From: a virus
Virus record (IMG/VR): IMGVR_UViG_3300005588_000067
Location: 1 to 32,729 of that record
Reading direction: 5' to 3' (one strand)
DNA length: 32,729 nucleotides
The notes beneath the pieces were generated by a model that had not been told where the DNA came from, did no database searches, and saw only the letters and a program-made list of their open reading frames with translations. Every line of letters begins with the position of its first letter. Position 1 is the stretch's first letter. Of this stretch, positions 2,086 to 27,968 are shown one piece after another. The position numbers and the translations under genes are program-made.

Positions 2086-2589
2086 ATGTCATTCTGGGAT
2101 CTATCAGACGGTAACAAAGCAGAATCAAACGGCTCTATGGATATGGGTGGCGGCAACATGGAGCCAATCCCTAACGGTACGGAGCTGTTAGCGTTAATCG
2201 ACGAAGCCAAGCTCGACAGCTACGAAGATGATACCTATATTAGCCTTCGCTGGACTGTGCAAGCGCCAGAACAGTATAAGAATCGCAAGATCTTTCAAAA
2301 GGTTCGTGTGTTCGACACTGACTCGACAAAAGCCGATAAAGCAAAGCGCATGCTAATGGCAATTGACCACAACTGCGGTGGTAAACTAGCGGCATCAGGT
2401 GAAGCGCCAGGTGATCACAATATGCCTGCGGCATTGTGCGCCAAGCCGATGATGATTAAGGTGCAGATTTGGGAAATTAACGACAAGTCTGGCAACTGGG
2501 TATCATCCGTAGCAGCTCGCAATGCAACGCCAGCGCCGCAACCTGCGACGACTGACAATAATGCAGACGGCGACGATATTCCGTTTTGA
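2086..2589 (+). CDS. Phage single-stranded DNA-binding protein
   Basis: A 167-residue protein that most likely coats single-stranded DNA during phage recombination and replication. Its C-terminus is a flexible Pro/Ala/Asn stretch ending in the acidic tip DGDDIPF, which matches the DDDIPF tip that bacterial SSB uses to recruit partner enzymes. The middle (about residues 30-145) is beta-rich with segments such as YISLRWTVQA and MMIKVQIWEI, consistent with an OB-fold of the DUF669-like phage SSB group. It lies 12 bases after the Sak4-like gene, and recombinases of that type are commonly paired with an SSB. The tip is read directly; the OB-fold is inferred. Confidence 0.72.
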   Translation: MSFWDLSDGNKAESNGSMDMGGGNMEPIPNGTELLALIDEAKLDSYEDDTYISLRWTVQAPEQYKNRKIFQKVRVFDTDSTKADKAKRMLMAIDHNCGGKLAASGEAPGDHNMPAALCAKPMMIKVQIWEINDKSGNWVSSVAARNATPAPQPATTDNNADGDDIPF

Positions 2590-2637: not shown

Positions 2638-2958
2638 ATGGATTACATAGAAAAAGTAAAGAAAGCCATTAATCAGCTAGAAGCTGAAAGCCATCTGTCA
2701 TCTGCCAATCAGTATTGGCTTTCAGAGCTTAAAGAGCTAGACCAAAAAGATGACGACATTACTGAAAGAGATTTTGCATTAATTGAACTGCTTACACCTA
2801 TTGATTTCAATATAAGCAGTTCAATACCAGCGAGAAAGCAATTGGTCGTTAGCCGCAGGAATGAAGTGCAAATAGTAGTACCATTTTTAACAGGCGCTCC
2901 ATTGGAAAAAGCCCTTGAATGGCTAAAAAGTAATAAGTTTAGCGGCCTTTGGGATTAA
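2638..2958 (+). CDS. Hypothetical early protein
   Basis: A 106-residue protein that I do not recognise. The ATG at 2638 is chosen because TAAAGGAG stands 9 bases ahead; an upstream alternative start would run through the hairpin. The first half is highly charged and probably helical (MDYIEKVKKAINQLEAE, then ELKELDQKDDD). The C-terminal half is more hydrophobic (QIVVPFLTG, ALEWLKSNKF). No transmembrane segment or signal peptide is seen. It lies between the SSB and the YqaJ exonuclease, so a minor role in recombination or replication is possible but unproven. Confidence 0.65.
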   Translation: MDYIEKVKKAINQLEAESHLSSANQYWLSELKELDQKDDDITERDFALIELLTPIDFNISSSIPARKQLVVSRRNEVQIVVPFLTGAPLEKALEWLKSNKFSGLWD

Positions 2959-2975
2959 ATAAGCGAGAAAAACAA

Positions 2976-3863
2976 ATGACAACTGAAAACATAGAACAAC
3001 GGAGCAAAAGCTGGTTTGAAGCCCGAAAAGGCCGCATAACTGGCAGCGTAGCGGGGGCAGTGCTTGGCCTGAACCCGTACATGAAGCCAGCCGATGTTAT
3101 GCGCAACATGGTGCGCGACTATCACGGGGCAGATAGAGAATTTAAAGGCAACGTGGCGACGGAATACGGCACAGCAAACGAGCAAACTGCTATTTCATCC
3201 CTTGAAATGTTTCACCTTGATCAGCCAGTTGAAGAAACCGGCTTTCACGTTCACCCTGAGCACGACTGGCTAGGCGCAAGCCCAGACGGGTTGATCGGTG
3301 AAGACGGCATAGCGGAAATTAAATGCCCATTTGGCCAGCGAGGCAAATACGTGCCAGAGTTCAAATCGCTAACAGATCAACCGCACTACTTCGCACAGGT
3401 GCAGATTGAAATGGCATGCACTGGCCGAACATGGGCTAAGTTTTACCAGTGGGCACCAAACGGCGATGCGATTAGTGAGCACGCATATAGCCAAGCTTGG
3501 TTTGATGAAAACCTGCCAAAGTTGGAGGCGTTTTATCAATCTTATTTGGTCGAGCGTGAACTGCCAAACGCGCAGCGCTATCTTGAGCCTAAGCATAAAG
3601 AGCAGAGCGATACTTTTGTTGTTGATTTAGTTGAGGAGTACCAGCTGCTATCAGCGAAAATAAAAGAGTACGAGCAGGCAAAAAAAGACCTGTTAGCTGA
3701 GATAGTCGAACGCTGCGGCGAGCGTCAAAGCGAAATCAACGGCCATAAGCTAACCAAGGTAGAGCGAAAAGGTTCGGTTGAGTATGCCAAGGTGCCAGAA
3801 TTAAAAGGCGTAGACCTTGAGCAGTATCGCAAGAAGCCATCAAGCTATTGGAGCCTAAAATGA
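2976..3863 (+). CDS. YqaJ-type viral exonuclease (lambda Exo fold)
   Basis: A 295-residue nuclease of the YqaJ viral recombinase family. Relatives degrade one strand of double-stranded DNA ends to give a tail for the annealing protein. The family landmarks are in order: ARKGRITGSVAGAVLG near the N-terminus (16-31), a conserved acidic residue in GTANEQ (E69), the catalytic SPDG (D104), EIK (E114 and K116) and QVQ (141-143). After about residue 215 there is a charged, probably coiled-coil tail. The ATG at 2976 is used rather than a TTG nine codons upstream, since that part has no conserved content. It works with the Sak4-like ATPase and SSB encoded just before it. Confidence 0.9.
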   Translation: MTTENIEQRSKSWFEARKGRITGSVAGAVLGLNPYMKPADVMRNMVRDYHGADREFKGNVATEYGTANEQTAISSLEMFHLDQPVEETGFHVHPEHDWLGASPDGLIGEDGIAEIKCPFGQRGKYVPEFKSLTDQPHYFAQVQIEMACTGRTWAKFYQWAPNGDAISEHAYSQAWFDENLPKLEAFYQSYLVERELPNAQRYLEPKHKEQSDTFVVDLVEEYQLLSAKIKEYEQAKKDLLAEIVERCGERQSEINGHKLTKVERKGSVEYAKVPELKGVDLEQYRKKPSSYWSLK

Positions 3864-9326: not shown

Positions 9327-9827
9327 ATGAAAACATTACTTATCTCAATATTACTTCTTTCAGGCCTATCTCATGCTGAATGGCAGTTAGAGTCAAAAAC
9401 TTCTAAGGTTGCTATGAACTGGGGCGACAAAGGAAGCTTCGATTTCACTCTAAACCAAGTCGGAGGTTCATACCTGCTTAAAAACGGCATTGGTTTCAGT
9501 ACATTAGCCGGTCAATCGGACACACAAAGCGAACAGGTTGCTACGGTAAAGCTGCGTGACTTCTGGGTAATGAGCGCTTTTTATGATGTGAGAGTGACAA
9601 ACAATATATCCATTATTCCATCTTTTACATATACAGAATACAAAGAAGTGGTGAACGGAGAAGCTAAACCAGACACTGGCACGGGTTACGGCATGGCTAT
9701 TCAATATAAAATTAATAGCAAATATGCCGTTAAAGCATCAATGAATGAGTACTACGGCAAAAAGTCAGACTGGTGCGGATATGAAGACACAAAAGGGTTT
9801 GGGCTATCACTCGTAGCCAGATTCTAG
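9327..9827 (+). CDS. Outer-membrane beta-barrel protein (Lom/OmpX-like role)
   Basis: A 166-residue secreted protein, probably a small barrel in the host outer membrane. The signal peptide MKTLLISILLLSGLSHA has a basic residue, a hydrophobic core and a cleavage site SHA-E after residue 17. The mature part alternates polar and hydrophobic residues in strands such as VGGSYLLKNGIGFSTL, NISIIPSFTYTEYK and YGMAIQYKINSKYAVKASM. The chain ends in ARF, the terminal phenylalanine needed for outer-membrane insertion. Its size fits an 8-strand barrel. With its own promoter and terminator it behaves like a moron. By analogy with lambda Lom it may alter the lysogen surface (adhesion, serum resistance or exclusion of other phages). 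Its 3' end overlaps the convergent o-spanin gene by 21 bases. Confidence 0.72.
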   Translation: MKTLLISILLLSGLSHAEWQLESKTSKVAMNWGDKGSFDFTLNQVGGSYLLKNGIGFSTLAGQSDTQSEQVATVKLRDFWVMSAFYDVRVTNNISIIPSFTYTEYKEVVNGEAKPDTGTGYGMAIQYKINSKYAVKASMNEYYGKKSDWCGYEDTKGFGLSLVARF

Positions 9828-16233: not shown

Positions 16234-16818
16234 TTAGGACTGTTTTTGATACCAAGTTGATTCTGGCCAGTTCGCTTCTTTTGTAGCAACTTGAGATATG
16301 AATTCAAAAAAACGATCACTAGGATATTTAGCTACTTGATCACCATTAGTGTAGCGCTCTACTTTTGGTCGCTCCCAGTCTACAAGTCTATCCCTGATAG
16401 AGATGGACGCGCTTGATGTTTCTCCGTATTTGAAATTAACAGCATCTGTTAAGCCACGCCATGCAATCATGGGATCGCCTAGTTGAACTCCGTCCTCGTC
16501 AAAGAAAATCTGCCAGCATGTAGCCATGTTGTTTAGGTAGTTGAGCTGGCTTATAGCCTCAAGCACTTCGTCACTGATACCGCTCAATGTTACTTCGTAT
16601 TGTTTTGGTGATAGCTTGCCATCACCTTGCGGCATAGAAACATTACCTAAAGCGCCAAGCCCTATAAACTCCTCGCCTTCGTGTGTGTAACTGGCGTTTA
16701 GCGTGGTTAACGCTAATCGGTAAGGTTCAGGGAATTCAACAAGTACAAGAAAAGCCGTTTTGAACGGCTTACCTGTTGCTAGATAGTCAATGATAGCTTG
16801 ATCAATATTGCGCGGCAT
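16234..16818 (-). CDS. Tail-tip hub protein (DUF2163/DUF1833-like)
   Basis: A 194-residue structural protein of the tail tip. Recognisable traits are a helical start (MPRNIDQAIIDYLATGKPF), then beta strands YRLALTTLNASYTHEGEEFIG, an LSG turn (YEVTLSGIS), and the C-terminal pattern DRLVDWERPKVERYTNGDQ followed by YPSDRFFEF and a Trp near the end (EANWP). This pattern is shared by hub proteins found between the tape measure and the J-like protein in many siphoviruses. Both flanking genes fit that order. It joins the previous gene by TAATG. The precise family name is uncertain. Confidence 0.62.
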   Translation of the reverse strand: MPRNIDQAIIDYLATGKPFKTAFLVLVEFPEPYRLALTTLNASYTHEGEEFIGLGALGNVSMPQGDGKLSPKQYEVTLSGISDEVLEAISQLNYLNNMATCWQIFFDEDGVQLGDPMIAWRGLTDAVNFKYGETSSASISIRDRLVDWERPKVERYTNGDQVAKYPSDRFFEFISQVATKEANWPESTWYQKQS

Positions 16819-18536
16819 TAGTTTACGTCCTCAATGAAATCAAACCCCATTGATTGTACGCCGTTTACGTTAATATCCCAGCTTTGATCATTTGAGCCAA
16901 GGTAGAACTTGCCCTTCGGCTCGTTAGTGATAATAGATTCTCCACCTGTTAGCGACTTTCGCAATGGTGGTGCGATTGGGATGTCTGCGGTTGCTAGTAG
17001 ATCAGCAGGGTACTGATTTGGTTCGGCAGGGTCTATCACTGCCGGATAATCGTCTGCTTTTCCGAAATAAGACGCTTGTGCATACACCTGCGAACCTATA
17101 GGCGCTACCGTTCCAGCATTGCTAGCTGTAAATGTATATCGGCCATACGTATCAGGGTCGTCAGCTTCTGCTATCCAGTAAGCCTGAAACAATTTAAAAC
17201 CATTACCTAAGTCTGTTATCTGATAGTCTGTCATATTACTTGATCTAACACTAAGGTCTTCAACTGCAATCTTTAGTGTTTTTATTGGAGTGACCGAGCC
17301 ACCGATTACGATAGATATGTCAAAAGGGTTTGCATCTACAGGTTTTAATATAATGCCTATATAAAGCTTTTCGCCTGTAACAACCGATAAGTCATTTAAA
17401 AATGAGTCTTGCATAGTGAAGAAGCTAGCGCCATCCTGAACAGCTAAACCTAGCACAGGCTCGCCGCTTGGATTGTCTAGTGTTACATTATCAACAGTGC
17501 CATTACCACCATCAGTCCACCCGCTAGGATCAAACGGACTAGGCATCAAGTTAGTGCTTGTGTACGAAATAGCGCCCTTGTATTTGTCGGATTTTCCGAA
17601 ATAGGCGGCTTGAACGTAAAGCTGCGAGCCGATTGGGGGCTGTGTAGGAGCGTTAACCATGTCCGTAAACGTGGCGACAGCAAAACAACCGGCTGCATCA
17701 ATGGTTAGTGTTTCCATTGCTTCAACTAAAACAAAATCATTTCCTAGCTCAGTAAATTTAACTTCATCAACATTCCCGTTAGGGTATGTATTATTTCTTA
17801 AATCTATCCGAGCCGAGGCAATCTGAGATCCTGTTTTATTAAAGCCAATAAAGCAACCCGCCTCCCACGTGTCAACTCTTTTATATATAAAGGCGCAATA
17901 AAGCTTATCCCCGGCTAAAAAGTCTTGAGGATTATCCAAAGATGAGAAAAAAGTAAAAGGCCCTGCTCCTGTCTGCTCTGCCAACCCAATAACGCTAGAG
18001 CCACTAGGATTTGCCAGCGTTACATTTGTTATAGTCCCATCGGAATCTGGCTTCCACCCACTCGGATCAAACGGACTGGGCATGTAATTAGTGCCAGTGT
18101 ATTCAATATAAGACTGCGGCGCGGCCACATCTTCGGGCACCATTTTTAACTCGCCATTGACCTCTAGATAGTCACCAGCTTCAAACAGTTTATCTTGATC
18201 AGCATTCCAGCCTTTTGTATTCAATAAAGACGAACCAGAAGCCACAGCCCCATCAACTACACCAGCGCCAGACATAGTGCCGCTTTGGTAAGCATCGAAT
18301 GGCGTCAAATAGAAACGCCCAACCTTGCCACCTAGGCTAGTCATAAACGCTTTGATTTTATTAGCTTCTTGCCTTGTGCGATTACTAAACGCAACTGAAC
18401 CACGCCAGCGAGCACCGGGCAACTCCATGTGCTGCACATTCTTATTAAGCGTAGACTCAAACGAGCTTGTATTCGATTCAAGTGTAAAGCTGGGGTTAGC
18501 ATCTGGGCTAACATTGGGGAAATTCTTAACGGCCAT
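16818..18536 (-). CDS. Distal-tail-like protein with two inserted jelly-roll-like modules
   Basis: A 572-residue tail protein. Residues 1-145 (FTLESNTSSFESTLNKNVQ, LPGARWRGSVAFSNRTRQEA, GGKVGRFYLTPFDAYQSG) and about 500-572 (KGKFYLGSNDQSWDINVNGV, MGFDFIEDVN) form the Dit-like core that caps the tail tube. Between them lie two copies of a 170-residue module, residues 149-318 and 328-497. Each opens with TNYMPSPFDPSGW or TNLMPSPFDPSGW and closes with APIGSQ(L/V)Y.QA.YFGK.D.Y or the similar PPIGSQ version. The pattern resembles carbohydrate-binding jelly rolls in other phage tails. A third copy lies near the capsid gene. The modules probably bind host glycans; that is inferred. Confidence 0.72.
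   Translation of the reverse strand: MAVKNFPNVSPDANPSFTLESNTSSFESTLNKNVQHMELPGARWRGSVAFSNRTRQEANKIKAFMTSLGGKVGRFYLTPFDAYQSGTMSGAGVVDGAVASGSSLLNTKGWNADQDKLFEAGDYLEVNGELKMVPEDVAAPQSYIEYTGTNYMPSPFDPSGWKPDSDGTITNVTLANPSGSSVIGLAEQTGAGPFTFFSSLDNPQDFLAGDKLYCAFIYKRVDTWEAGCFIGFNKTGSQIASARIDLRNNTYPNGNVDEVKFTELGNDFVLVEAMETLTIDAAGCFAVATFTDMVNAPTQPPIGSQLYVQAAYFGKSDKYKGAISYTSTNLMPSPFDPSGWTDGGNGTVDNVTLDNPSGEPVLGLAVQDGASFFTMQDSFLNDLSVVTGEKLYIGIILKPVDANPFDISIVIGGSVTPIKTLKIAVEDLSVRSSNMTDYQITDLGNGFKLFQAYWIAEADDPDTYGRYTFTASNAGTVAPIGSQVYAQASYFGKADDYPAVIDPAEPNQYPADLLATADIPIAPPLRKSLTGGESIITNEPKGKFYLGSNDQSWDINVNGVQSMGFDFIEDVN
17046..17555 (-). repeat. Jelly-roll-like module, copy 2 (in tail protein)
   Basis: This encodes residues 328-497 of the tail protein. 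It opens with TNLMPSPFDPSGW and closes with APIGSQVYAQASYFGKADDY. It is more diverged from copy 1 than the head-region copy is at the 5' edge, so it is probably the older duplicate. Confidence 0.8.
17583..18092 (-). repeat. Jelly-roll-like module, copy 1 (in tail protein)
   Basis: This encodes residues 149-318 of the tail protein. The 39 bases at 18054-18092 differ at one position from 26645-26683 in the head-region copy. The 29 bases at 17605-17633 are identical to 26199-26227. The middle has diverged. Confidence 0.85.
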
Positions 18537-20383
18537 TATGCGCGTCTCCTTACGGCTTGCGATGCTGAGCCGCCGCCGTTTATTGCTGCAAATACTTGAT
18601 TATAAACGGATTGATTAATGCTTGGTAGCAGGCCAGCTAGCTCGGCTTTAGTCACACCGCTTTGGATATTTACATTCACAGTGACGTTATTCTCGCCGCC
18701 GCCTAGGTTGTGATTAGCTTGCACATTGCCATTGCCATTCATGTGGACAATCTCTGGCCCATTCTCACCCACTAGGTAGCTGTTACCACTTGATACTTGG
18801 CCACCCATAGCGCGAGCGCCTTGGTATTCTTGCTGGTTAATAGCCGCAATCTGCACCGCAGCCAGTCCAGCCATAGCGGTGGCAAATGCAGGTTTTGCTA
18901 TAGTTGGTATTGATTGGTCACCAAGAACCCCTAAAACAGCTAGTGATGCACTAATAAGCGCTTGTGTGCTTGCCAGTGCCTTGTAATTATCAAACTGTTC
19001 TTTGCCGCCTTGTTTGGCAATATCAGCTAGGTTTCCGAAAAACTGACCTGTGTAGCCTAGTGTTTTTTGTTGTTCGGCGGAAAGGATTTGGCTTTTCTGC
19101 TCTTGTGTTCTGTTTTCTATTGCAATCAAGTCGGCAGATAGCTTCTCCGCGTTCTGCGTTCTAAGCTGGTCGTAGCGCTCTTGCGATAGGTTTAATTCAT
19201 CGTTTGAAAGCTGGATTACTTCATTGCGGCGCTCAAACTGTAATCTTGCACGCTCGGCAGGGTCAGCCTGTTGAACTTCGATAGACGCAAGTTGACTGCT
19301 AAGCGAAGAACGCAAGGCTTCTTGTTTCTTTAGCGCATCTGTTTCGGCTTCAATCTTTTCGATACTGCCCTGCATGGCAAGCGCGCTGGCAATCTCTGCG
19401 TCGGTTGCACCATTAAGGATTAATTCGCGTTTAAGCAACTCAGAGTTGTTTAGAGTTAACGCAGCTAGTTGATCAGCCAGGTCAAGCTGTGTCCTTTGGA
19501 TAGCTGTCGCTCTTTCAACTTCTAGCTTAGTTTGTCCATTTAATATAGCATCGCGTTCTTTTAGTGTATTATTGTTTTCTTCAATTACTGCTTTATTAGT
19601 CGCAATTACTCTGTTGAGGCGGTTCTGTTCTTCCTTGTACTCGATAATACCAATACGGCCTTTTTCATAACTAGAAATAAGCCTGTCCAATTGAAAAACA
19701 GCTGTTTCGTAATCCCCTTTTGCTTCTCTTATTTCTTTTTTTAGCTTTTTTTGGTCTTCTGCTAGGTTTATTCGCAAAAGTTCTTTTTGCGCGCTGCCCA
19801 GTTCATCGAATTTATTGATCAGCTCTTCAATTTCTTCTCTAGTGTCGGCTGTCTGCCCTTCGGTGTCACTTAACGCAGTCAACAACGGCCCAGCCATAAC
19901 ACCAGCTGCAGCACCCACAAGGATGCCAAGTGTACCAAAACTCAACAGCATATCAGGAAGCTGAATAGCTAAAGCGCCAAGGTAGTTGCCGGTTACAGCA
20001 CCTTGTTGAGCTACTTGGTTTAATTGAAATGATAGGTTACGAGACGCGCCCCCCATTCCATTGGTCGCTTTTTCTGCCTTGCCAGTCTGAATTGCCAAGG
20101 CTTGTGACTTGACGCTCGCGGCTGCAATAGAATTGGCGTATTCTTGGTTGGATCTTGCGGCAATAAGTGTAGATCTTGCTAGCTCGTCTGTTTCTGTATC
20201 AAGTTTTGCATTAATTTGTGCAAGTTTAGACTGTCCTATAGCAAGTGCTGAGCTTTCTTTTTTTAGCTTCTGCATCGCAAGTTCTGACGCGCCAGATTTT
20301 TTGCCAAGCTTATCAAGCTGGACAAGCCCAGCTTCTAGGCTTTTTGTGTCTAAAGCTATCGCAAGCTTTGCAATATCTGTCAT
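18536..20383 (-). CDS. Tape measure protein
   Basis: A 615-residue tape measure that sets tail length and enters the host envelope during DNA injection. The N-terminal third is helical (LAIALDTKSLEAGLVQLDKL). A hydrophobic stretch follows at about 134-171 (LPDMLLSFGTLGILVGAAAG). A long Glu/Lys/Leu-rich coiled coil covers about 180-470. The C-terminal region has GGQVSSGNSYLVGENGPEIV, a hallmark of phage tape measures. It starts in a TAATG overlap with the frameshift chaperone gene, as expected for this position. At roughly 1.5 angstrom per residue the tail would be about 90 nm. No peptidase or transglycosylase domain is seen. Confidence 0.9.
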   Translation of the reverse strand: MTDIAKLAIALDTKSLEAGLVQLDKLGKKSGASELAMQKLKKESSALAIGQSKLAQINAKLDTETDELARSTLIAARSNQEYANSIAAASVKSQALAIQTGKAEKATNGMGGASRNLSFQLNQVAQQGAVTGNYLGALAIQLPDMLLSFGTLGILVGAAAGVMAGPLLTALSDTEGQTADTREEIEELINKFDELGSAQKELLRINLAEDQKKLKKEIREAKGDYETAVFQLDRLISSYEKGRIGIIEYKEEQNRLNRVIATNKAVIEENNNTLKERDAILNGQTKLEVERATAIQRTQLDLADQLAALTLNNSELLKRELILNGATDAEIASALAMQGSIEKIEAETDALKKQEALRSSLSSQLASIEVQQADPAERARLQFERRNEVIQLSNDELNLSQERYDQLRTQNAEKLSADLIAIENRTQEQKSQILSAEQQKTLGYTGQFFGNLADIAKQGGKEQFDNYKALASTQALISASLAVLGVLGDQSIPTIAKPAFATAMAGLAAVQIAAINQQEYQGARAMGGQVSSGNSYLVGENGPEIVHMNGNGNVQANHNLGGGENNVTVNVNIQSGVTKAELAGLLPSINQSVYNQVFAAINGGGSASQAVRRRA

Positions 20384-20763
20384 TAAAAATCACCTGCCCA
20401 ATCTGGTACTTCGTGTTTGCCATGGCCTCTATTGCGTTCACTGAGCCAAGCGCTTGATAATTGAACGATGGCGAACGCCTCGTCTTTTGTTGGTTTGATT
20501 CCTGTTATATCAGACCAAGCTTTTATTTCTTGCCATGTAATGACAGTGCCTAAGCCTATTTCACAAATCCAGTCCCAGACATAGCCTAGCGGGCCTTGAT
20601 CTGGAAACCCCCAATTCCATTGTTTTAAGCGTGGCTCCTTCTGCCCTTCTTGCGTGGCAGATAGGAAGCCCATTAGCTTTATGAAGGTTTTAATCTGTTC
20701 ATAATTGTCTGCATGTAGCCTTTTTTTTTGCCGAAATGCTCGTCGACAGCTACACATAGCCAA
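20383..20763 (-). CDS. Tail assembly chaperone extension (T part of a G/GT pair)
   Basis: This frame encodes the C-terminal part of the longer tail assembly chaperone. The meaningful portion begins after the frameshift (20720 down to 20383). It reads RLHADNYEQIKTFIKLMGFL and includes the aromatic stretch GYVWDWICEIGLGTVITW. The first 14 residues of the open frame (MAMCSC...) are antiphase to the G gene and probably are not used. Minus-one slippage on the A9 run would yield a 221-residue fusion (109 plus 112 residues). In lambda the GT fusion recruits the tail tube protein to the tape measure, and the order here, tube, G, T, tape measure, is the same. Confidence 0.75.
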   Translation of the reverse strand: MAMCSCRRAFRQKKRLHADNYEQIKTFIKLMGFLSATQEGQKEPRLKQWNWGFPDQGPLGYVWDWICEIGLGTVITWQEIKAWSDITGIKPTKDEAFAIVQLSSAWLSERNRGHGKHEVPDWAGDF

Positions 20764-21047
20764 TAGTATTCAGGATTGGTTAGGTACTCTTTCGCCAATT
20801 CCTTGGTGAACGGAATTTCTTTGCCTTCTTCCGTAACACCAGACCAACCAACTACAGCACAAAGCGCCTGATTGATAACAAAGTTAGACCAATCTGGGCC
20901 ACTCTTTGAGCGGTCAATACGAGCAGAGGCGTTCGCAAATTCAGCACTTAATGGGTCGCACACAGTGAACTTAATGCCAACGTCGCCAGCTTGCGGGTGA
21001 ATAACGTTAATAACTTCGTTCTGTGTGCCTAGCTCCTTGATGTCCAT
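20679..21047 (-). CDS. Tail assembly chaperone (G-like)
   Basis: A 122-residue short chaperone made when no frameshift occurs. The N-terminus contains MDIKELGTQNEVINVIHPQA and GIKFTVCDPLSAEF, typical of this group of small acidic proteins. The middle has NFVINQALCAVVGWSGVTEE. The A9 slippery run is at codons 107-109, close to the end, as in lambda G. It sits between the tube gene (1 base away) and the T frame. It coats the tape measure before tube polymerisation and is not expected in the virion. Confidence 0.8.
   Translation of the reverse strand: MDIKELGTQNEVINVIHPQAGDVGIKFTVCDPLSAEFANASARIDRSKSGPDWSNFVINQALCAVVGWSGVTEEGKEIPFTKELAKEYLTNPEYYWLCVAVDEHFGKKKGYMQTIMNRLKPS
20721..20729 (-). promoter_or_regulatory. 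Programmed -1 frameshift site (A9 run)
   Basis: On the minus strand GGC is followed by nine A and then GGC. The G frame reads AAA-AAA-AAA-GGC. Slipping back one base gives AAA-AGG-CTA and enters the T frame, which stays open to the tape measure gene. The A9 run provides several slippery heptamers (A-AAA-AAA and A-AAA-AAG). Confidence 0.75.
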
Positions 21048-21048
21048 A

Positions 21049-21492
21049 TTAAGGTGCCGCCACTTCGATTAAGTCAGAGGTAACGCCCAAATTGGTTGAT
21101 CGCATATTCACCGCGCCAGATGTAGCTTCTGAATCTGGAGCACTAGCAACAATTGCTTGGCAGTACTGAATACGACCAGATGGGCGAACAACCTTCATGC
21201 TGATAGGATCAGGACTATCAAGTGCGGTGATTAGAATCCCCTGCCCAGCGTCGCCTTCTACAATTCGATATTGCAAAGCAGGGTCGCCGTTGTTTTTTGC
21301 GCCCTTGGCTTTTCGAGTCACGCCATCTTTTAAGTCCACATGATTAAGAATCTCAAAAGATGCGCCAATTTCACCAAGTGAAGACACGCCAGTCACTTCT
21401 GACCATGTTAAACCGGCATAATCTGTGTCTGTTTCTGTAGCTGGTAATGCAGCGGAAACAGATACGACCGTTCCTATATTTGTTAGAGACAT
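21049..21492 (-). CDS. Major tail tube protein
   Basis: A 147-residue protein that forms the tail tube. It starts with SLTNIGTVVSVSAALPATET, the common opening of tube proteins in this phage group. YAGLTWSEVTGVSSLGEIG, GDPALQYRIVEGD and a C-terminal strand (VTSDLIEVA) follow. The single-domain size and position directly before the G/GT chaperones and tape measure support the call. AGGAAAAAGCA precedes the ATG. Confidence 0.85.
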   Translation of the reverse strand: MSLTNIGTVVSVSAALPATETDTDYAGLTWSEVTGVSSLGEIGASFEILNHVDLKDGVTRKAKGAKNNGDPALQYRIVEGDAGQGILITALDSPDPISMKVVRPSGRIQYCQAIVASAPDSEATSGAVNMRSTNLGVTSDLIEVAAP

Positions 21493-21535
21493 TGCTTTTT
21501 CCTATCGTTTCACTGTTTTTGATAGTTGTATTTTA

Positions 21536-21928
21536 TCACTCTGAATACTCAAATGATAGCGGCAACACGTACACGCCACCTCGCTGGAATGGTTCCATTG
21601 TCTGTGGGCTAGTTGTAATGCGAATGGCGTCCACTAATATTGAGCCTCTGGTGAACTCAGCTTCGATTAGGCCGGCTATATCCGTTAGCTGTTTAATGCC
21701 GTTGTTCTTTTTGTTGCACACGTTTATCTGGCCAATGCCACGGCGAAACACTTTAGTATCATTCAGGCCATAATCGCGGTCGTTAGGCGCAATGGATAGC
21801 TCAAGCCATGCACCGCTAGCTGGCTCGGTGAAGTCAAAGCCAATGCTATTAATCGGCAGGCTGTTAGCCGTGGCAAACGCCTTGGCCTTATCCATTAGTG
21901 CTATGTGAACTTGTGATAGTGTTGTCAT
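21536..21928 (-). CDS. Tail terminator protein (DUF4128-like)
   Basis: A 130-residue protein that likely caps the tail tube and joins it to the head connector. The features fit the phage tail terminator family: a helix at the start (LSQVHIALMDKAKAFATANS), the strand GAWLELSIAPNDRDYGLND, a fixed GIGQINV (about 63-69) and a helical DIAGLIEAEF before the last strand pair (VYVLPLSFEYSE). It overlaps the upstream completion gene by 4 bases. Its position before the tube gene fits. Confidence 0.8.
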   Translation of the reverse strand: MTTLSQVHIALMDKAKAFATANSLPINSIGFDFTEPASGAWLELSIAPNDRDYGLNDTKVFRRGIGQINVCNKKNNGIKQLTDIAGLIEAEFTRGSILVDAIRITTSPQTMEPFQRGGVYVLPLSFEYSE

Positions 21929-22344
21929 TCTCTTAACGTCCTACTCATTAATAAGCCTGCATTCTTGGCAACCGTGTACTGCCAATTTTGCGCAGCCTTT
22001 CGCATAAATTTAAACCGGTTTTCCATTGGTCGCGCATAGTTAGCCGTCCAGCCGAAATACAATGTCTCACCAACTCGCCAGCGGTTAATGGTTGTAACCG
22101 TCTCGCCCGCGTCCCAGTCGCGAGGAGTGTAGCCTTCTGGCTGTTCGTCTGGGCCAATAGGTAAACGCCCAATGGCTGCCTGCCCTGAGTTAATCAAGAA
22201 GCTTGTATCAATAGGAGTGTTACCGCCTTTATTGTAGTCGGTCTGCGCTTCTCGGATTATCTCCTGTGCAGACTGCTTAAACACAGCCTCGATACGTTCG
22301 TTACTGGATGATATAAATTTGTTAATGTCGGCGGTGAATGTCAT
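21925..22344 (-). CDS. Tail completion protein (HK97 gp10-like)
   Basis: A 139-residue neck protein. The helical N-terminus (INKFISSSNERIEAVFKQSA) leads to a beta-rich core (LRVGETLYFGW-like strand RWRVGETLYFGWTANYARPM) with the YARPMEN motif, found in gp10-like proteins as YA..vE. A final helix contains AQNWQYTVAKNAG. It is coupled by ATGA overlaps on both sides. It likely sits between the head connector and tail terminator; the family is supported but not certain. Confidence 0.68.
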   Translation of the reverse strand: MTFTADINKFISSSNERIEAVFKQSAQEIIREAQTDYNKGGNTPIDTSFLINSGQAAIGRLPIGPDEQPEGYTPRDWDAGETVTTINRWRVGETLYFGWTANYARPMENRFKFMRKAAQNWQYTVAKNAGLLMSRTLRE

Positions 22345-23378
22345 TTAAACCCCTCCATCCTGACCTGTCGGCCAATAAAATCTATTGTGATTACATTACG
22401 GCAACGGCACTGGATTAGCTGCTTACCGGGTGCGCCTAGGCTGTTATCACCAGGGTACATTGCCTTGCTGCCATCTGGGAACACGTATTCTTCTTCGATT
22501 GGAATGCCATCTTTGTAGTTGGCCTCCATTTGGAAATGATCTAGGCGCGTTCGCTTATCTCCCGTAGCGTCCCATGATTTCTTAGCATCCTGCGAATCCA
22601 GCTCGCCTTTGGCCATGGCCTGCTCAACTGCTTGAAACTGGCCAGCACGCAAAGCATTAATGGATTCAGTGCGTGCTATTGCGTCACCTCTAAATTTCAG
22701 TGTCTTGCTTTGCATTCGTGTGATGGCGTTATCAATCTGTACCTTTGTTAATGGTTTGTCATCCTCAATGGCCTTGCGGATAATATGATCATAACTCTTA
22801 TCCCTAAGCTCGCGATTGAAATAGTTGCGGTCTAATTCTAACAGCTCATTGCGGGCTTTATTAACCCATCCTGCTTGCTGTGTGGTTAGGCCCACTGTAC
22901 CGCCTGCCCTTTTGCCTGTTTCTGGGTTGTATCGCCCTACCAAACCAATCGCCGTGGTGCGTGGGTTATCGCCAAGCTCTAAGCCTCGCTCCAATTGCTG
23001 CTTAATCATATCCACTTGATCTGTAACTACCTCCGTTACAAACTGGCTAGACTCGCTCCGTATCCATTCAATGGCACTAGGCGCGGCCATATCAAAACGA
23101 AAACCGACACTGCCTAGCTCAGTAGGTATGCGACCGATCTGCTCAACGCCTGTTAGGCCGCCTGTTCTGTACGCTTGGTATATTTCATCGTCTACCTGCT
23201 CAAACGCCGCCCTGTCGATGCCCAGCAAGCGCACCACTGCGTCACTGTCTTGTCGCTCTATCGCGGCCTCTAATTCTTTTAGCGTCACGCTGTTTTTTAT
23301 ATCAGACACAGACGAAGCAAAGGCGCGTAGCATGTCGCGTTCTTTTTGTTGTGCAATTAGGTCTAGATTAATAGGCAT
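22341..23378 (-). CDS. Phage Mu gpF-like head morphogenesis / minor capsid protein
   Basis: A 345-residue minor head protein of the Mu gpF/SPP1 gp7 family, which is thought to bind the portal and enter the capsid in a few copies. The core is IARTESINALRAGQF (234-248), then W269 in SWDATGDKRTRLDH ending at H281, then the conserved cysteine pair CRC (324-326). The long helical N-terminus is typical. Its location is unusual: these genes normally follow the portal gene, but here it lies far downstream, after the inserted two-gene cassette. GAGGGG, its only ribosome site, sits inside the terminator hairpin just before the ATG. Confidence 0.85.
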   Translation of the reverse strand: MPINLDLIAQQKERDMLRAFASSVSDIKNSVTLKELEAAIERQDSDAVVRLLGIDRAAFEQVDDEIYQAYRTGGLTGVEQIGRIPTELGSVGFRFDMAAPSAIEWIRSESSQFVTEVVTDQVDMIKQQLERGLELGDNPRTTAIGLVGRYNPETGKRAGGTVGLTTQQAGWVNKARNELLELDRNYFNRELRDKSYDHIIRKAIEDDKPLTKVQIDNAITRMQSKTLKFRGDAIARTESINALRAGQFQAVEQAMAKGELDSQDAKKSWDATGDKRTRLDHFQMEANYKDGIPIEEEYVFPDGSKAMYPGDNSLGAPGKQLIQCRCRNVITIDFIGRQVRMEGFK

Positions 23379-23400
23379 AAAAAACCCCTCGATTGAGGGG
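23379..23400 (-). terminator. Intrinsic terminator overlapping the gpF ribosome site
   Basis: On the minus strand CCCCTC-AATC-GAGGGG forms a perfect 6-base-pair hairpin followed by six T, then the ATG of the gpF-like gene. It would end transcripts of the small cassette upstream. The GAGGGG arm is also the only Shine-Dalgarno candidate for the next gene, so folding would hide it. Late transcription must read through. Confidence 0.7.
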
Positions 23401-23426
23401 ATTATAGCAAGAATGGGCGGTGTGGG

Positions 23427-23648
23427 CTATTTTACCTGCTTATACAAATAGTTAAGCGGTACTACCACATCAGTTCCGTTTACCCTCTTAAAGCAATAGC
23501 TTTCAAGTTTGTAGTTAAGTACATGCTTAGTGTATCCATTCTCAACGCACTTTGATCCGTTAATTAACAACAGAGGAACTATTACCGTAAAAAAACTTAG
23601 CACAAATAGTATATATAACGAAAATAATATGCGGGTTAGATGTCTCAT
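23427..23648 (-). CDS. Small membrane protein of a moron-like cassette
   Basis: A 73-residue protein with one N-terminal membrane helix (about 7-29, ILFSLYILFVLSFFTVIVPL). A 44-residue domain on the outer side of the inner membrane follows, with two cysteines (C34, C52) that could form a disulfide. AGGAGCAATAAA precedes the ATG; the 15 bases ending at the start codon are identical to those of its partner gene. No family is recognised. Topology and setting in a separately transcribed cassette recall phage exclusion or membrane-change proteins, which is inference only. Confidence 0.65.
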   Translation of the reverse strand: MRHLTRILFSLYILFVLSFFTVIVPLLLINGSKCVENGYTKHVLNYKLESYCFKRVNGTDVVVPLNYLYKQVK

Positions 23649-23664
23649 TTTATTGCTCCTCTAA

Positions 23665-24027
23665 TTACTCAAAAACCCATTTTAGTTTTGCCTTACCTAC
23701 AGGCTCAATATCTTTAATCATGGCTGTAAAGCATCCAGACTGGTAAAAATCCACTTCATGCCTTGTTTCATCGGATTCGATCTTTTCACAAAAGACATGA
23801 TGCCCGTCTGGGTAGGCATCCATCCCAGTAGAACCCCCATCTGAAGAGGTCTTAATTACAACATAGCTCCCCTTTAAATAGCTTAGCTCTCCACATAGCT
23901 TTACCGCTGCCTTGTCTAGAGTAAAATCTCCCTTTCTATTAGTGTAGATGAAATGCTTCGGGACTTTTGCGTAAACAGTATGCGAGCTGTTAAGCTCTAT
24001 TACGTCTCCAACCTCTAATTTTGTCAT
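23665..24027 (-). CDS. Conserved-looking hypothetical protein of a moron-like cassette
   Basis: A 120-residue soluble protein. It begins MTKLEVGDVIELNSSHTVYA. Conserved-looking blocks are HFIYTNRKGDFTL (25-37), SSDGGSTGMDAYPDGHHVFC (61-80) and DFYQSGCFTAMI (93-104), suggesting an all-beta fold with His and Cys residues that might bind metal. Similar blocks occur, as far as I recall, in unnamed phage proteins; no function is known. The ATG at 24027 is chosen for AAGGAG 9 bases upstream over an earlier in-frame start. It is the first gene of a two-gene unit with its own promoter. Confidence 0.68.
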   Translation of the reverse strand: MTKLEVGDVIELNSSHTVYAKVPKHFIYTNRKGDFTLDKAAVKLCGELSYLKGSYVVIKTSSDGGSTGMDAYPDGHHVFCEKIESDETRHEVDFYQSGCFTAMIKDIEPVGKAKLKWVFE

Positions 24028-24057
24028 TTTATTGCTCCTTTTGTTAAGCTCCCTTTT

Positions 24058-24085
24058 AATATACACCAGTCTAGCGTTATTGCAA
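24058..24085 (-). promoter_or_regulatory. Promoter of the moron-like cassette
   Basis: On the minus strand TTGCAA (24085-24080) and TATATT (24063-24058) are 16 bases apart. The -35 box starts at the base after the stop codon of the upstream neck gene. The -10 is preceded by GGTG and matches 5 of 6 positions, like the outer-membrane gene promoter. The coding start is 31 bases downstream of the -10 box. Confidence 0.6.
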
Positions 24086-24433
24086 CTACCCTTTCACAAA
24101 TATAACCCATGCAACAGGATCACCAGCCGCTGGCATTTGTTTGATACGGATAATTTCACGACTAACGCCGTCAATAGTTATGCGGCCCTGCATATTAGGC
24201 GTAGTACCGAACACGGCACCGGTTACTTGAATATCAGAGGCAGAGACCAAATCATCAACGTATTCTTTCGCAACGCCACTGGCTGTGGCATCCAATTGGA
24301 TCGGAGTTCCTTCTGTCATTGGGTCGTATTCGGTGGCGCCAGCTACTAACGGTACGTATTCGATAACGCCCTGCTTGAACTTGGCCATCAATCGACTAGC
24401 CGTGTCAGTCATGCGCCCGTAAAAATCAGCCAT
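24086..24433 (-). CDS. Head-tail joining (neck) protein
   Basis: A 115-residue virion protein. MADFYGRMTDTASRLMAKFK is a start shared by small neck proteins of siphoviruses. Beta segments follow (VIEYVPLVAG, GRITIDGVSREIIRIKQM), ending VAWVIFVKG. The ATG at 24433 is inside the end of the Ntn hydrolase gene with AAAGGTAAG upstream, which is better than a start 26 codons earlier. It follows the head-tail adaptor and hydrolase genes. The joining function is inferred from family resemblance and order. Confidence 0.62.
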   Translation of the reverse strand: MADFYGRMTDTASRLMAKFKQGVIEYVPLVAGATEYDPMTEGTPIQLDATASGVAKEYVDDLVSASDIQVTGAVFGTTPNMQGRITIDGVSREIIRIKQMPAAGDPVAWVIFVKG

Positions 24434-24893
24434 TAATAAACTTACCTTTCTTAATATCGTAAACGCGAACCTTGCCGCCCGTGTATATGTCGCGTGTTGC
24501 TGCGTACTCAACCGCCTGTTTTGCGGTCTTGCCGTGGTCTATTGCTGCTATTGCCCACTCGCTACCTGAGCCAGTGGCTGCCACAGCCTCGTCTAGTGGC
24601 TCCATCCAGAATTGCCCGCCATCCTGAATGCTAATAAGATAAACGTGGTCATCCTTAACTAGAATACCCTCACACTGCAATTCGAACTCAGTCTCGACCA
24701 CATCGCCATGACTATAATTAACCGTTAGCGCCGATAGCATCTCAAAGTCAGCACGGCACCCGGCCATAAAGATGATTCCATTCTCTGTCTTCATCCACTT
24801 CTGTGCGCCATCCGTCGTGATCATACTCCCTTTAGTCAAACGGCTATCGCAAGCAATCTGCCCGCGCTTATGATCATAGACGATGGTGGTCAT
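24426..24893 (-). CDS. HslV/proteasome-like Ntn hydrolase
   Basis: A 155-residue threonine hydrolase of the proteasome beta/HslV fold. The protein opens MTTIVYDHKRGQIACDSR, so removal of Met leaves Thr as the catalytic N-terminus, as in HslV (MTTIV). The conserved Asp (residue 16) and Lys (residue 32) keep the 16-residue spacing of HslV D17 and K33. GIIFMAGCRADF matches the AG strand. ATGSGSEWAIAAIDHGKTAKQAVEYA matches in order the GSGG loop and the following helices, then IYTGGKV. The catalytic set looks complete. No unfoldase partner is visible. It lies between head-tail connector genes, where it may process head or neck proteins, but its target is unknown. Confidence 0.82.
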   Translation of the reverse strand: MTTIVYDHKRGQIACDSRLTKGSMITTDGAQKWMKTENGIIFMAGCRADFEMLSALTVNYSHGDVVETEFELQCEGILVKDDHVYLISIQDGGQFWMEPLDEAVAATGSGSEWAIAAIDHGKTAKQAVEYAATRDIYTGGKVRVYDIKKGKFING

Positions 24894-24899
24894 AGTTGT

Positions 24900-25328
24900 T
24901 TACCCGTGTGATACAGTGAAGTTACTCGAACCATAACCGCCACTAGCTAAATATGGCGCTAGCATAGCATTGAGCTTGCGGTATATGGTCGCTTGGTTTC
25001 CTGTGTCTGAGTATGACACTGAAACGGCACCGAATACAGTTTCTTGTGTCACTCTTTGACCAACGTCACCCAGCGGGTCTTCGCCGCGATCGTAGATCGT
25101 AGCCGCCTCCATTTGGGCCGCTATAATATTAAATGGCACTTCTGTAGCGCCATCGCGAGGCCATGATAAGGGCTGTAACGGATCTGTTTTTTCGCCTTTG
25201 TATGATTGTACTTCCATATAATCAAGCGCAAGGGTTAGCGTTTCAGTGCTTGGCCTTGTTAGCGTGATTCCTCGCAGTGCAGCCGCTGCTTCATAGTCTA
25301 CTGTGTCTACGTATCCGATTAGTGCCAT
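24900..25328 (-). CDS. Head-tail adaptor, DnaT-like family
   Basis: A 142-residue connector protein. The pattern LIGYVDTVDYEAAAALRGI, then ALDYMEVQSYKGEKT, then PLSWPRDGATEVPFNIIAAQ is that of the phage family often named DnaT-like, which in structure corresponds to small head completion proteins that bind below the portal. A helical C-terminus (NQATIYRKLNAMLAPYL) follows. It stands 9 bases after the 270-residue head gene and before the hydrolase. The name reflects the family and does not imply a replication role. Confidence 0.78.
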   Translation of the reverse strand: MALIGYVDTVDYEAAAALRGITLTRPSTETLTLALDYMEVQSYKGEKTDPLQPLSWPRDGATEVPFNIIAAQMEAATIYDRGEDPLGDVGQRVTQETVFGAVSVSYSDTGNQATIYRKLNAMLAPYLASGGYGSSNFTVSHG

Positions 25329-25337
25329 GTTGTGCCT

Positions 25338-26150
25338 CTATAAATAATCATTATCTACTAGTATTCCTACAACCCTGCAGCTTACACGACCATTGCCAGT
25401 GGTTGTATTAGAAGAAAAGAAAGCATCCGTCTTCTGAGGTATTGGTGTCATAGCAAAATCTAACTGCACAGTACTTTCGTATATACTGACAACGTTAGTG
25501 GCCGTTAGTGGAATTCCAATGCTTGGGTTTCTTACATTCCAGTAAAAGTCGTTATCCCTACCCTTCGGAGCGCTAAAATAACCAACTTGGCCAAATAGCG
25601 TAAAACCAGCAGGGACAGTGAAAAAAGCTAAATTACTTGTTTGTCTGCTAGATTCAAATGCGCTAACAATCATACTAGAGTCATTTGGTACTCCGCCAGT
25701 GTGTGCATTTTCTCGGGCAGCATAAACATCTCCTATCGTCCCATTTGGGCTAATACATCTCATTTTGTTAATGCGCAATCCTGTACCCTCTGAGAATTCA
25801 ACAGGGGTTTGGCCACTAAGTGAAATTATAAAGCTTTTTTCGTTATAGTCTGAATCTAAGGTTTCAATAAGAATATTATTAGTGTCAACTGCACTAGTAC
25901 TGCTCAGCCAAAATGATGTAGGCGTATCGCTAATTGCATACTGACTAGCAAGCGGCCATATAAGTTTGGTAGTCGTTGTTATATTGTTGGCATATGAATT
26001 CACATAAACCATCCTATGCCCTGCTATCTGTCCCTTTGATATGCTCAGATGTAAAGGCTCGTTTGATACTTTTTGACGGCGAATATACGCCTTGTCACTC
26101 GTCATCAAGTCATCAGGCAAGCCCTGAATTATAGAGGGTACTCTACTCAT
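25338..26150 (-). CDS. Head structural / decoration-type protein
   Basis: A 270-residue beta-rich virion protein. It contains a pattern known from phage structural proteins near the capsid gene: IWPLASQYAISDTPTSFWLS, then NILIETLDSDYNEKSFIISL with SGQTPVEFSEGTGLRINKMR, then GTIGDVYAARENAH and VGYFSAPKG. Such proteins are thought to decorate the capsid or neck. The N-terminus is short and helical (LPDDLMTSDKAYIRR). It begins in an ATGA overlap with the module-bearing gene, so the two are probably translated together. Exact location in the virion is unknown. Confidence 0.6.
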   Translation of the reverse strand: MSRVPSIIQGLPDDLMTSDKAYIRRQKVSNEPLHLSISKGQIAGHRMVYVNSYANNITTTTKLIWPLASQYAISDTPTSFWLSSTSAVDTNNILIETLDSDYNEKSFIISLSGQTPVEFSEGTGLRINKMRCISPNGTIGDVYAARENAHTGGVPNDSSMIVSAFESSRQTSNLAFFTVPAGFTLFGQVGYFSAPKGRDNDFYWNVRNPSIGIPLTATNVVSIYESTVQLDFAMTPIPQKTDAFFSSNTTTGNGRVSCRVVGILVDNDYL

Positions 26151-26812
26151 AGCGTTGGCATCACGTTAGCAGGAAAATCATCTGCTTTTCCGAAAAAAGC
26201 GGCTTGAACGTAAAGCTGCGAGCCGATAGGTGCCGCAACAGCGCCTGATTTCATTATAATACTTGTATATGCGTTAGTCTGGTTGAAAGTCTCTGTATTT
26301 AATACTTCAAGCAAGACAAATCCATCACCTAATAGAGTGAATTTATAATCGACAGGTGAGCCACTCGCCAAGGTGTTTGTCTCTATATTGAATAGAGAAA
26401 ACGAATTCAAGCCTGCATCATCAAAAGTTGCAATCTGTATCCTTTGATTAGCCCATGAATCCATAACCTTGTATATTATCGCAGTGTAGTGCTTTTCGCC
26501 CGCTAGTATGCTCGGTATTTTATTGTCGAAATTAGTATTTAATGTAAATTCACCCGCACCAGTTTGCTCGGCTAGGCCCACAACATCAGCCCCGCTTGGA
26601 TTAGCTATTGTTACATTTTCAATAGTCCCGTCAGCGTCCGGACGCCACCCACTCGGGTCAAACGGACTGGGCATGTAATTAGTAACATAAGGATAGCTAA
26701 CAATAAAACTAGGATTGTGTGACTTTCTTACGCGTCTTTGTTTTTGTTTGTGCCACGCTTGAAACACTTGTGTTTCCGTTGTCGCATAGCTCGGGCTTGT
26801 TAGTGTTATCAT
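26147..26812 (-). CDS. Head-region protein carrying a jelly-roll-like module
   Basis: A 221-residue protein whose main part, residues 44-213, is the third copy of the module found twice in the Dit-like tail protein. It opens TNYMPSPFDPSGWRPDADG and closes APIGSQLYVQAAFFGKADDF. The first 43 residues are basic and low in structure (WHKQKQRRVRKSHNPSF) and are read from DNA that also encodes the end of the preceding gene in another frame. GAGGG stands 8 bases before the ATG at 26812. Lying between the capsid gene and a decoration-type gene, it may display the module on the capsid. That is inference; the module copy itself is clear. Confidence 0.65.
   Translation of the reverse strand: MITLTSPSYATTETQVFQAWHKQKQRRVRKSHNPSFIVSYPYVTNYMPSPFDPSGWRPDADGTIENVTIANPSGADVVGLAEQTGAGEFTLNTNFDNKIPSILAGEKHYTAIIYKVMDSWANQRIQIATFDDAGLNSFSLFNIETNTLASGSPVDYKFTLLGDGFVLLEVLNTETFNQTNAYTSIIMKSGAVAAPIGSQLYVQAAFFGKADDFPANVMPTL
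26174..26683 (-). repeat. Jelly-roll-like module, copy 3 (head region)
   Basis: This encodes residues 44-213 of the head-region protein. It shares a 39-base edge (one mismatch) and a 29-base identical edge with copy 1 of the tail protein, about 8.6 kb away, while the central part is clearly diverged. Confidence 0.85.
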
Positions 26813-26957: not shown

Positions 26958-27968
26958 TTAGTTAGTTACTAAGAACGCTAATGGTACAAGCTTGCGATCT
27001 ACAACACGGTTCCAGCTTGTGGCTAGCTTCAATTCAGCAATGCTGAAGGAGTCACCAGAAGGAGTGCCGGTTGATTCAAAACCGAACGGGTGCAAGATTT
27101 GAGTCTTACGAGTCCATAGGGTAGAGATACCGCCACCGTTACCGCCTGACTCAGCACGCTCCAATTCAACTGGGTATTCTGGCATGCCTTCGCCGTAACC
27201 GAATGCACCAGCGCCAAATAACACTGTGGTATATTTGAAGCCATCAGTTGAACCAGCTGTCACAGTCATGCCATCATCAACAATTACACGTTTGCCCATG
27301 TAAGTTGGGATAGTCATTTGACCTTGTGAATCAGGGATGAAGTCAATGTCGTCAGCGTCAACCATTTGCTTGTACACTTGAGAGTGAACAGCAATTGCAC
27401 CTGTATTGGTGAAGGCATCGCCCAAAGTGAACGCAGCTGCGGTGAAATTAGAGCGGCTAAACTTAGTAGCAGCAGATTGACCGGCAATAGACTCAGAAGC
27501 AACATCAACAACCATATCACCGGAGTCATTCGCCACGTTATCCGCTAGGATGCCGTCACAAGAAGCAATTAAACGGCGCTGCCATTGACGCATCCAGTAT
27601 GTGTCAACACGGTTGCGAATGTGAGTCATTGCATTTTCACCCATTGCCAACTCAGCTGCTAGGTCAGATGCAGATAAACCTTTGTTTAAGAATGCTTTGC
27701 GGCTTACCTGCTCGGCTTGGGTTAGTTTCTGCGCTGCTGCAACTTCAGCAGGATCATCGCTAGTTAGGTTAGCTTCGATAGCAGCGTCAATGTCATTCCA
27801 GAATGGTAATTCTGCTTTTTTACCGGCTGCGTTTGCTAGTGCGTCAAGTAAAGGCGTGCGAACAACAACACCAGATTGATAGAATGCTGTTAGCTCAGGT
27901 GAGTTTACAGCAGGTAGGTCTTGAAAGACGGTTACGTCGATAATGTCGGCTAATTGGGTAGTTGCCAT
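26958..27968 (-). CDS. Major capsid protein (gp13-like, HK97 fold)
   Basis: A 336-residue capsid protein. ATTQLADIIDVTVFQDLPAV, then NSPELTAFYQSGVVVRTPLL, is the typical opening of the gp13-like capsid family. FWNDIDAAIEANLTSDDP, MRQWQRRLIASCDGILAD and the C-terminal LATSWNRVVDRKLVPLAFL are other conserved blocks. The family does not use a maturation protease, which agrees with the separate scaffold gene upstream and no prohead protease in the window. AAGGAAAA precedes the ATG. It is likely the most abundant product of the operon, and the stable hairpin after it fits that. Confidence 0.88.
   Translation of the reverse strand: MATTQLADIIDVTVFQDLPAVNSPELTAFYQSGVVVRTPLLDALANAAGKKAELPFWNDIDAAIEANLTSDDPAEVAAAQKLTQAEQVSRKAFLNKGLSASDLAAELAMGENAMTHIRNRVDTYWMRQWQRRLIASCDGILADNVANDSGDMVVDVASESIAGQSAATKFSRSNFTAAAFTLGDAFTNTGAIAVHSQVYKQMVDADDIDFIPDSQGQMTIPTYMGKRVIVDDGMTVTAGSTDGFKYTTVLFGAGAFGYGEGMPEYPVELERAESGGNGGGISTLWTRKTQILHPFGFESTGTPSGDSFSIAELKLATSWNRVVDRKLVPLAFLVTN

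Follow-up and report, generated by a model that had tools for sequence, protein, structure and literature searches.

Introduction

In evolved distal tail proteins (Dits), described in lactococcal and other siphophages, a carbohydrate-binding-type domain is inserted in a classical Dit of ~200 amino acids (aa), and the presence or absence of the insert varies between relatives (PMC10688798, PMC9692632). In lactococcal phages, such inserts aid adsorption to exopolysaccharide-bearing hosts (PMC10688798). Here we analyse a 32,729-base IMG/VR virus record (hereafter "the window", meaning the whole of that stretch of DNA) in which a 170-residue module occurs in three copies: two in tandem within the Dit and one in a gene directly behind the major capsid gene. 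The window resembles evolved Dits in both respects, and differs from them in that the module family also occurs outside the Dit, in that Dits carry one or two copies or a copy together with a second module type, and in that module cores are swapped and the DNA at the module ends is conserved. We consider the module likely to be a mobile display domain that sits in fixed sockets on head and tail and whose conserved ends mediate exchange by homologous recombination.

Phage domain shuffling, as treated in the portions of the report drawn on here (Smug et al., 2023; PMC10684548), likewise involves domains common to otherwise unrelated proteins, with recent shuffling in receptor-binding and neck proteins; those portions concern general mosaicism and mention neither Dit nor conserved ends at the DNA level, whereas here a single family spans head and tail genes and has its cores replaced between fixed ends. 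Hoc and T5 pb10 resemble the head-region carrier of the module in that they adjoin the capsid gene and combine a conserved N-terminal anchor with a solvent-exposed, exchangeable C-terminal domain (PMC5292684); they differ in that their displayed domain is immunoglobulin (Ig)-like, whereas here it is a predicted jelly roll, and in that the anchor here is a short basic helix that also exists as a stand-alone peptide and whose binding to the capsid is presumptive. In its predicted beta-sandwich fold, the module resembles the carbohydrate-binding modules (CBMs) CBM4, CBM16 and CBM22 and the fibre domains of Pa193 (9b45) and E217 (8env), but identity to these is ~10%, with no Pfam or PHROG profile match. 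The system works like domain shuffling into evolved Dits, extended to one family on head and tail with conserved DNA ends.

Results

Three modules in the window share DNA edges and differ in their cores

The two carrier genes, their parts and the adjoining capsid gene are as follows.

16818..18536, minus strand: Dit gene, 572 aa, with two tandem inserted modules (PHROG 1302, E=6e-32)
18093..18536, minus strand: N-terminal part of the Dit, as far as the insertion site; insert-free Dits of ~200 aa are homologous to it
17583..18092, minus strand: first (N-terminal) Dit module
18054..18092, minus strand: N edge of the first Dit module
17605..17633, minus strand: C edge of the first Dit module
17046..17555, minus strand: second Dit module, closest to the single Dit module of locus L010
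17517..17555, minus strand: N edge of the second Dit module, with the exact sequence ATGCCTAGTCCGTTTGATCC
16821..17045, minus strand: C-terminal Dit part after the insertion
26147..26812, minus strand: head-region carrier gene, 221 aa, comprising anchor peptide, module and short tail; orthologues with other modules in L012, L021, L031, L010 and L190
26684..26812, minus strand: anchor peptide, 43 residues, basic helix at residues 12-31; stands alone as a 37-aa gene in L026/L067
26174..26683, minus strand: module copy in the head-region gene
26645..26683, minus strand: N edge of the head copy, 39 nucleotides (nt), one mismatch to 18054-18092
26199..26227, minus strand: C edge of the head copy, 29 nt, identical to 17605-17633
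26958..27968, minus strand: major capsid protein gene (PHROG 247 major head protein, E=5e-100); the head-region carrier follows immediately downstream

A first-pass annotation of the window had placed three copies of the module in a Dit-like tail protein and in a gene just downstream of the capsid gene, and these assignments hold. Each module has 170 residues (42-52% amino-acid and 50-57% nucleotide identity), a repeat finder recovers the modules as three-copy families and finds nothing comparable in the rest of the window, the Dit N-terminal domain is present (PHROG 1302 over residues 14-139), and the third copy lies in the gene directly following the capsid gene. The edge matches reported between the N-terminal copy in the tail protein (17583-18092, "copy 1" of that annotation) and the head copy hold as reported, with 1 mismatch in 39 at the N edge and 29 identical bases at the C edge. 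An N-edge 20-mer occurs three times in the window, with 0-2 mismatches, and not at all in shuffles.

To separate DNA similarity from protein constraint, we counted same codons at identical residues. Between the first Dit module and the head module, the same codon is used at 10 of 11 such residues at the N edge (4.0 expected, P=1.8e-4), at 12 of 15 at the C edge (5.6 expected, P=7e-4), and at 17 of 53 in the core (19.5 expected; no excess). The remaining two module pairs show the same lean at the edges, individually not significant. The edge-conserved, core-variable pattern is present in protein and DNA both.

The module family occurs in at least seven kinds of virion gene

Searching 2.9 million viral contigs with the N-edge peptide, we found 29 loci, and a second scan, by the C edge only, added L190 and L191. 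Since 21 of the 24 loci of the C-edge scan carry the N-edge motif by pattern, and L191 carries a close variant (identified by eye), conservation of the N edge is not a search artefact. Four loci (L004, L005, L007 and L008) come from fragments of the virus population of the window itself and were left out of independent counts. In some 30 uncultured-virus contigs, the module is present in at least seven kinds of virion gene, five or more of them beyond those noticed in the first pass:

Dit, with one or two module copies
post-capsid (head-region) gene
450-aa gene (PHROG 11633), following the tape measure gene in L006 and L015
laminin-G-like fibre (PHROG 5939)
protein with weak Mu gp48 similarity (PHROG 4920/203), in L024
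1180-aa fibre (PHROG 11439), in L017
virion structural protein (PHROG 384), in L191

The module was not found among phage isolates; the head-region protein had no match there, and matches to the Dit cover mainly its N-terminal part. By capsid protein, the nearest isolates are the Alteromonas phages R9Y1-3 (54% identity), and these too give no match to the head-region protein. Two scans of 84,980 bacterial and archaeal genomes did not find the module, and searches against Pfam, PHROG and PDB sequences, with single sequences or all 29 members, gave no significant match. In L191 (3678-5189), two modules stand in tandem in the PHROG 384-matching gene and, in contrast to the window's pair, have similar cores; this suggests recent duplication or conversion within one gene.

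Module cores are replaced between genes and lineages

Flanks and modules were aligned separately, and flank identity was compared with core identity. In four gene kinds, the same flanks surround different cores: flanks are mostly 77-100% identical at the nucleotide level and cores 43-51% (in the more distant pairs L006/L014 and L009/L023, 5' flanks are 58-63%). Between host genes whose flanks are 80-100% identical, the modules reach only 43-57% identity. Six orthologous head genes contain six different cores, and in the head genes of the window, L012 and L190 the anchors are 100% identical in nucleotide sequence, with the break at the first module codon. The C-terminal Dit part is 80-91% identical in nucleotides to those of L016, L026 and L027, and 77% to that of L032, and the modules there differ. 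The reverse arrangement, different flanks around the same core, occurs in the Dits of L137 and L032 (flanks 53%, module 88%) and of L029 and L026 (flanks 54%, module 82%). In shared-core Dits of different lineages, identity climbs at the N edge and drops past the C edge. The L137 Dit exhibits both arrangements at once: its module is like that of L032 (88%) and its flanks are like those of L011 (85-88%), whereas the L137 and L011 modules share only 52% identity.

In a maximum-likelihood tree of the 29 modules, host-gene labels need 15 changes, as compared to a mean of 14.1 for shuffled labels, and the host gene is therefore uninformative on a module's nearest relatives. The starred branches of the tree force at least 5 label moves for Dit, at least 3 for head genes and at least 3 for fibres. 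The nearest relative of the window head module is the module in the 450-aa gene of L006 (71% aa identity), and that of the second Dit module is the single Dit module of L010 (54%).

The proposal of cassette exchange, made in the first pass from the window's three copies, gains from these comparisons: close relatives have the same flanks with swapped cores, related cores sit in other genes, and divergence along the module is non-uniform, so the recombination idea stands. We conclude that sequence evidence in both directions strongly supports exchange of cores.

Edge DNA is conserved at synonymous sites

Across the 29 modules, the same codon is used at identical residues in 61% of cases at the N edge (39% expected), 52% at the C edge (42% expected) and 40% in the core (37% expected). 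By column, the codon excess is concentrated at module positions 3-12 and 154-162, whereas the conserved core residues N28, P29, G31, G36, G62, K72 and G121 are at codon background, S30 being the exception. As a control, fully conserved flank residues of the same Dit genes, compared between lineages, give 0.38 against 0.35 expected, whereas the module N edge in those genes gives 0.66 against 0.38. It follows that the common ancestry of the edge DNA is more recent than that of either the Dit gene or the core. An N-edge 17-mer occurs in 16 of the 2.9 million contigs, 15 of which belong to the module family; the other, L214, was rejected as a chance match in an unrelated repeat protein.

The Dit loop and a post-capsid anchor peptide serve as sockets

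In the Dit, the insertion point lies between NGELKMV and the IPIAPPLR strand, and most of the more distant Dits (~195-222 aa) are without insert. The L128 Dit, with a flank 89% identical, has a different module of ~150 residues in place, and the Dits of L016, L017 and L132 have both module types in tandem. This second module type (~150-175 residues) is unrelated-looking and sits in this Dit socket too, either by itself or behind the first type; a scan with it returned known loci only, and no wider family. Four examples are:

L016, 2522-3043: second module type
L017, 10511-11032: second module type
L128, 3146-3619: second module type
L132, 10919-11392: second module type

The head-region gene, adjoining the capsid gene, has a conserved N-terminal anchor and a variable displayed part, and, beyond what the first-pass annotation described, its anchor peptide exists also without any module. 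In L026/L067 (capsid protein 99.4% identical), a 37-residue anchor gene is retained without module, that is, as an empty socket; L066 has a lone anchor gene of 39 residues; many relatives have anchor-like peptides of ~30-56 aa encoded behind the capsid gene; and some have the anchor fused with domains of laminin-G-like or other type. An anchor profile matched at 41 of 75 loci, the weakest matches being only marginal. In the anchor stretch shared by L066 and L078, third codon positions account for 9 of the 11 nucleotide differences, which argues that the anchor peptide gene is translated.

Two observations concern the same stretch. A tiny basic peptide gene (~28-56 aa), with a pattern like YAxPxSxxFxxWxxQxxRRxRK, lies behind the capsid gene in many phages of the capsid family, lacks annotation in the isolate Alteromonas phage R7M (L186), and possibly encodes an unrecognised capsid peptide:

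L026, 1720-1830: tiny basic peptide gene
L066, 3370-3486: tiny basic peptide gene
L078, 8450-8563: tiny basic peptide gene
L186, 5069-5152: tiny basic peptide gene

In the window, a ~68-codon open frame (~26915-26709, minus strand) starts between the capsid gene and the head carrier and overlaps the anchor in a different frame; it is open in L026 too (alignment read by eye).

The 26147-26812 product may be displayed on the capsid: the module-bearing head gene is directly behind the capsid gene in every occurrence, Hoc-like genes occupy this stretch in Jersey-type relatives, and an anchor followed by a displayed domain is the plan of T5 pb10 (PMC5292684). These points stand against the alternative that the product is a neck, tail or non-virion protein. 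That alternative, which we hold to be doubtful but the most serious of those considered, draws on the derivation of the location from gene order, on the position of the L191 module in another virion gene, and on relatives that can be without a module-bearing gene.

The module is predicted to be a jelly roll

In a predicted model of the head protein (mean predicted local distance difference test score, pLDDT, 82; 86-97 for most of the module), an all-beta domain lies behind an N-terminal helix. The nearest solved structures found by Foldseek are the Pa193 and E217 baseplate/fibre chains and the K2-2 tailspike, followed by CBM22, CBM4 and CBM16 (E 5e-6 to 1e-3 for PDB fold matches); for the predicted jelly-roll beta-sandwich against CBM4/16/22, E is 1.7e-4 and up and the target-length template-modelling (TM) score is 0.5-0.58. 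Matches in a viral structure library are tail fibres and concanavalin-like proteins. By sequence profile, none of the 29 members has a significant Pfam match to CBM4/16/22. The displayed domain is thus a predicted jelly roll and not Ig-like. AlphaFold of the whole Dit gave a pLDDT of 61, too weak to use, and the carbohydrate-binding-type fold of the Dit inserts is taken from the predicted, homologous head copy.

The predicted module resembles phage-fibre and carbohydrate-binding jelly rolls, so the glycan-binding role suggested in the first pass is not refuted by the predicted structure, and, by analogy with evolved Dits, the module may bind glycans. It is, however, conceivable that it binds no ligand and is a decoration that serves structure or stability, in which any core that folds is tolerated: close relatives with empty sockets imply that the module is dispensable, its ligand binding is putative, and variable cores could mean weak constraint. 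We consider this unlikely, in view of the fold matches to carbohydrate-binding modules and phage receptor-binding parts, the adsorption role of lactococcal Dit inserts cited above, and the predominance of tail-tip, baseplate and fibre proteins among the carriers.

The window encodes a candidate exchange system

The minus strand carries the terminase, portal, scaffold, capsid, head-region carrier, adaptor, closure, major tail protein, tape measure, Dit and fibre J genes, together with a Prim-Pol primase gene cut by the window's left end. The plus strand carries genes for a helicase, a cytosine methyltransferase and three recombination functions:

1216..2073, plus strand: Sak4-like single-strand annealing protein (PHROG 124, E=1e-33; Pfam AAA_24), candidate exchange agent
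2086..2589, plus strand: single-strand DNA-binding protein (SSB) (PHROG 9002, E=2e-53)
2949..3863, plus strand: RecE/YqaJ-type recombination exonuclease (PHROG 434, E=4e-44; Pfam YqaJ, E=3e-22)

Of the module-bearing contigs of >30 kb, 5 of 6 encode a close Sak4 homologue (one cut at the contig end), as does 1 of 9 capsid relatives of >30 kb without the module; the association is only suggestive because the phages are related and only close Sak4 homologues were sought.

Four further observations concern other genes of the window. The gene after the head carrier (25338-26150) is mosaic too, L021/L031 resembling the window only in the first ~69 residues. Two overlapping tail-chaperone frames (20679-21047 and 20383-20763) contain a nine-A run (GGCAAAAAAAAAGGC) near 20725, likely a programmed frameshift site. 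A gene for an HslV-family (proteasome-like) peptidase (24426-24893) lies among the head-tail genes, and its L010 homologue lies elsewhere in the cluster. The product of 9327-9827, which varies among relatives and has weak outer-membrane beta-barrel similarity (Pfam OMP_b-brl, E=1.4e-4, below the cut-off), could be a superinfection or surface-modifying protein.

Discussion

According to the hypothesis of a mobile display domain of jelly-roll fold, the module would occupy fixed sockets, namely the Dit loop, the short basic anchor peptide encoded behind the capsid gene, and sites in several other virion genes, and homologous recombination would bring in entire cores from a common pool. Alleles of a single gene would pair through their near-identical flanks, flanking homology being sufficient; in moves from one gene or lineage to another, pairing would be limited to the two conserved edges (N edge, ~40 nt; C edge, ~30-50 nt). 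The likely agent would be an annealing system such as the phage-encoded Sak4/SSB/RecE set. Phage recombinases accept divergent substrates (PMC3945230), and annealing proteins, Sak4 included, have been linked to mosaicism (PMC5499656). The first-pass suggestion that the phage's own annealing system promotes exchange is borne out as to the genes, which the window encodes; that their products drive exchange is plausible. The effect would be that host-surface (probably glycan) contact is changed, multiplied or removed on head and tail independently.

Several points weigh against this hypothesis. The window/L012 swap used the flank and not the edge, because the N edge moved with the core, and a role of the edges as crossover sites is deduced from moves between genes. 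L028 has two modules, and no close Sak4 homologue was found in its contig. The capsid location of the head product is deduced from gene order. A CBM-like fold is no proof of sugar binding, because TM scores are moderate (0.4-0.6) and identity is ~10%, and for all family members the fold is a predicted one.

Alternatively, the edges could be recognised by a specific recombinase or nuclease, in the manner of a shufflon or integron, and not act as general homology handles. Conservation at synonymous sites is restricted to the ends in distant phages and in seven gene kinds, and the N-edge 17-mer is nearly exclusive to the module family, as expected for such sites; however, the edges are direct copies on one strand and not inverted, substitutions are tolerated in them, a fixed site would be better conserved than the C edge is, and the annotated window proteins include no integrase, invertase or homing nuclease, small open reading frames of unassigned function remaining. 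The absence of inverted sites, and of such a recombinase among annotated window proteins, led us to reject a shufflon or site-specific cassette system as such, and we regard specific sites in general as rather improbable. We give similarly little credence to the strongest form of the exchange hypothesis, in which the module would be a genuine DNA cassette, with conserved ends kept as recombination sites and recognised or preferred by a phage-encoded function, loading a pool of binding domains in frame into head and tail sockets across distant phages.

Divergence of the cores without exchange, through fast mutation or positive selection acting in place while protein constraint held the ends, is very improbable. 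The edges are, to be sure, also the best conserved parts of the protein; but flanks 100% identical stand beside unrelated cores, near-identical modules occur in distant phages, edge codons are conserved beyond protein need, and the module tree mixes gene kinds. In-place hypermutation is refuted by the shared cores. A diversity-generating retroelement, which would account for a variable middle between constant ends, can be dismissed, since the window proteins scanned (every long open reading frame included) contain no reverse transcriptase and the cores differ by indels and all kinds of substitution, and match other phages' cores.

The receptor-binding parts of phages are known to be mosaic, and the in-frame entry of a domain into unrelated genes is mostly unexplained. 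Here, one domain family shows the intermediates together: some anchors are empty, some genes have a single module and some have two, another module type is present as well, and cores in different genes are related. The conserved DNA ends make the exchange mechanism directly testable by recoding. The pattern suggests a ready-made way of altering the surface to which a virus attaches. Should the module bind surface sugars, these phages could, through their sockets on both head and tail, alter or combine host contacts in a single step, and the cores could serve to read the host preference of uncultured phages.

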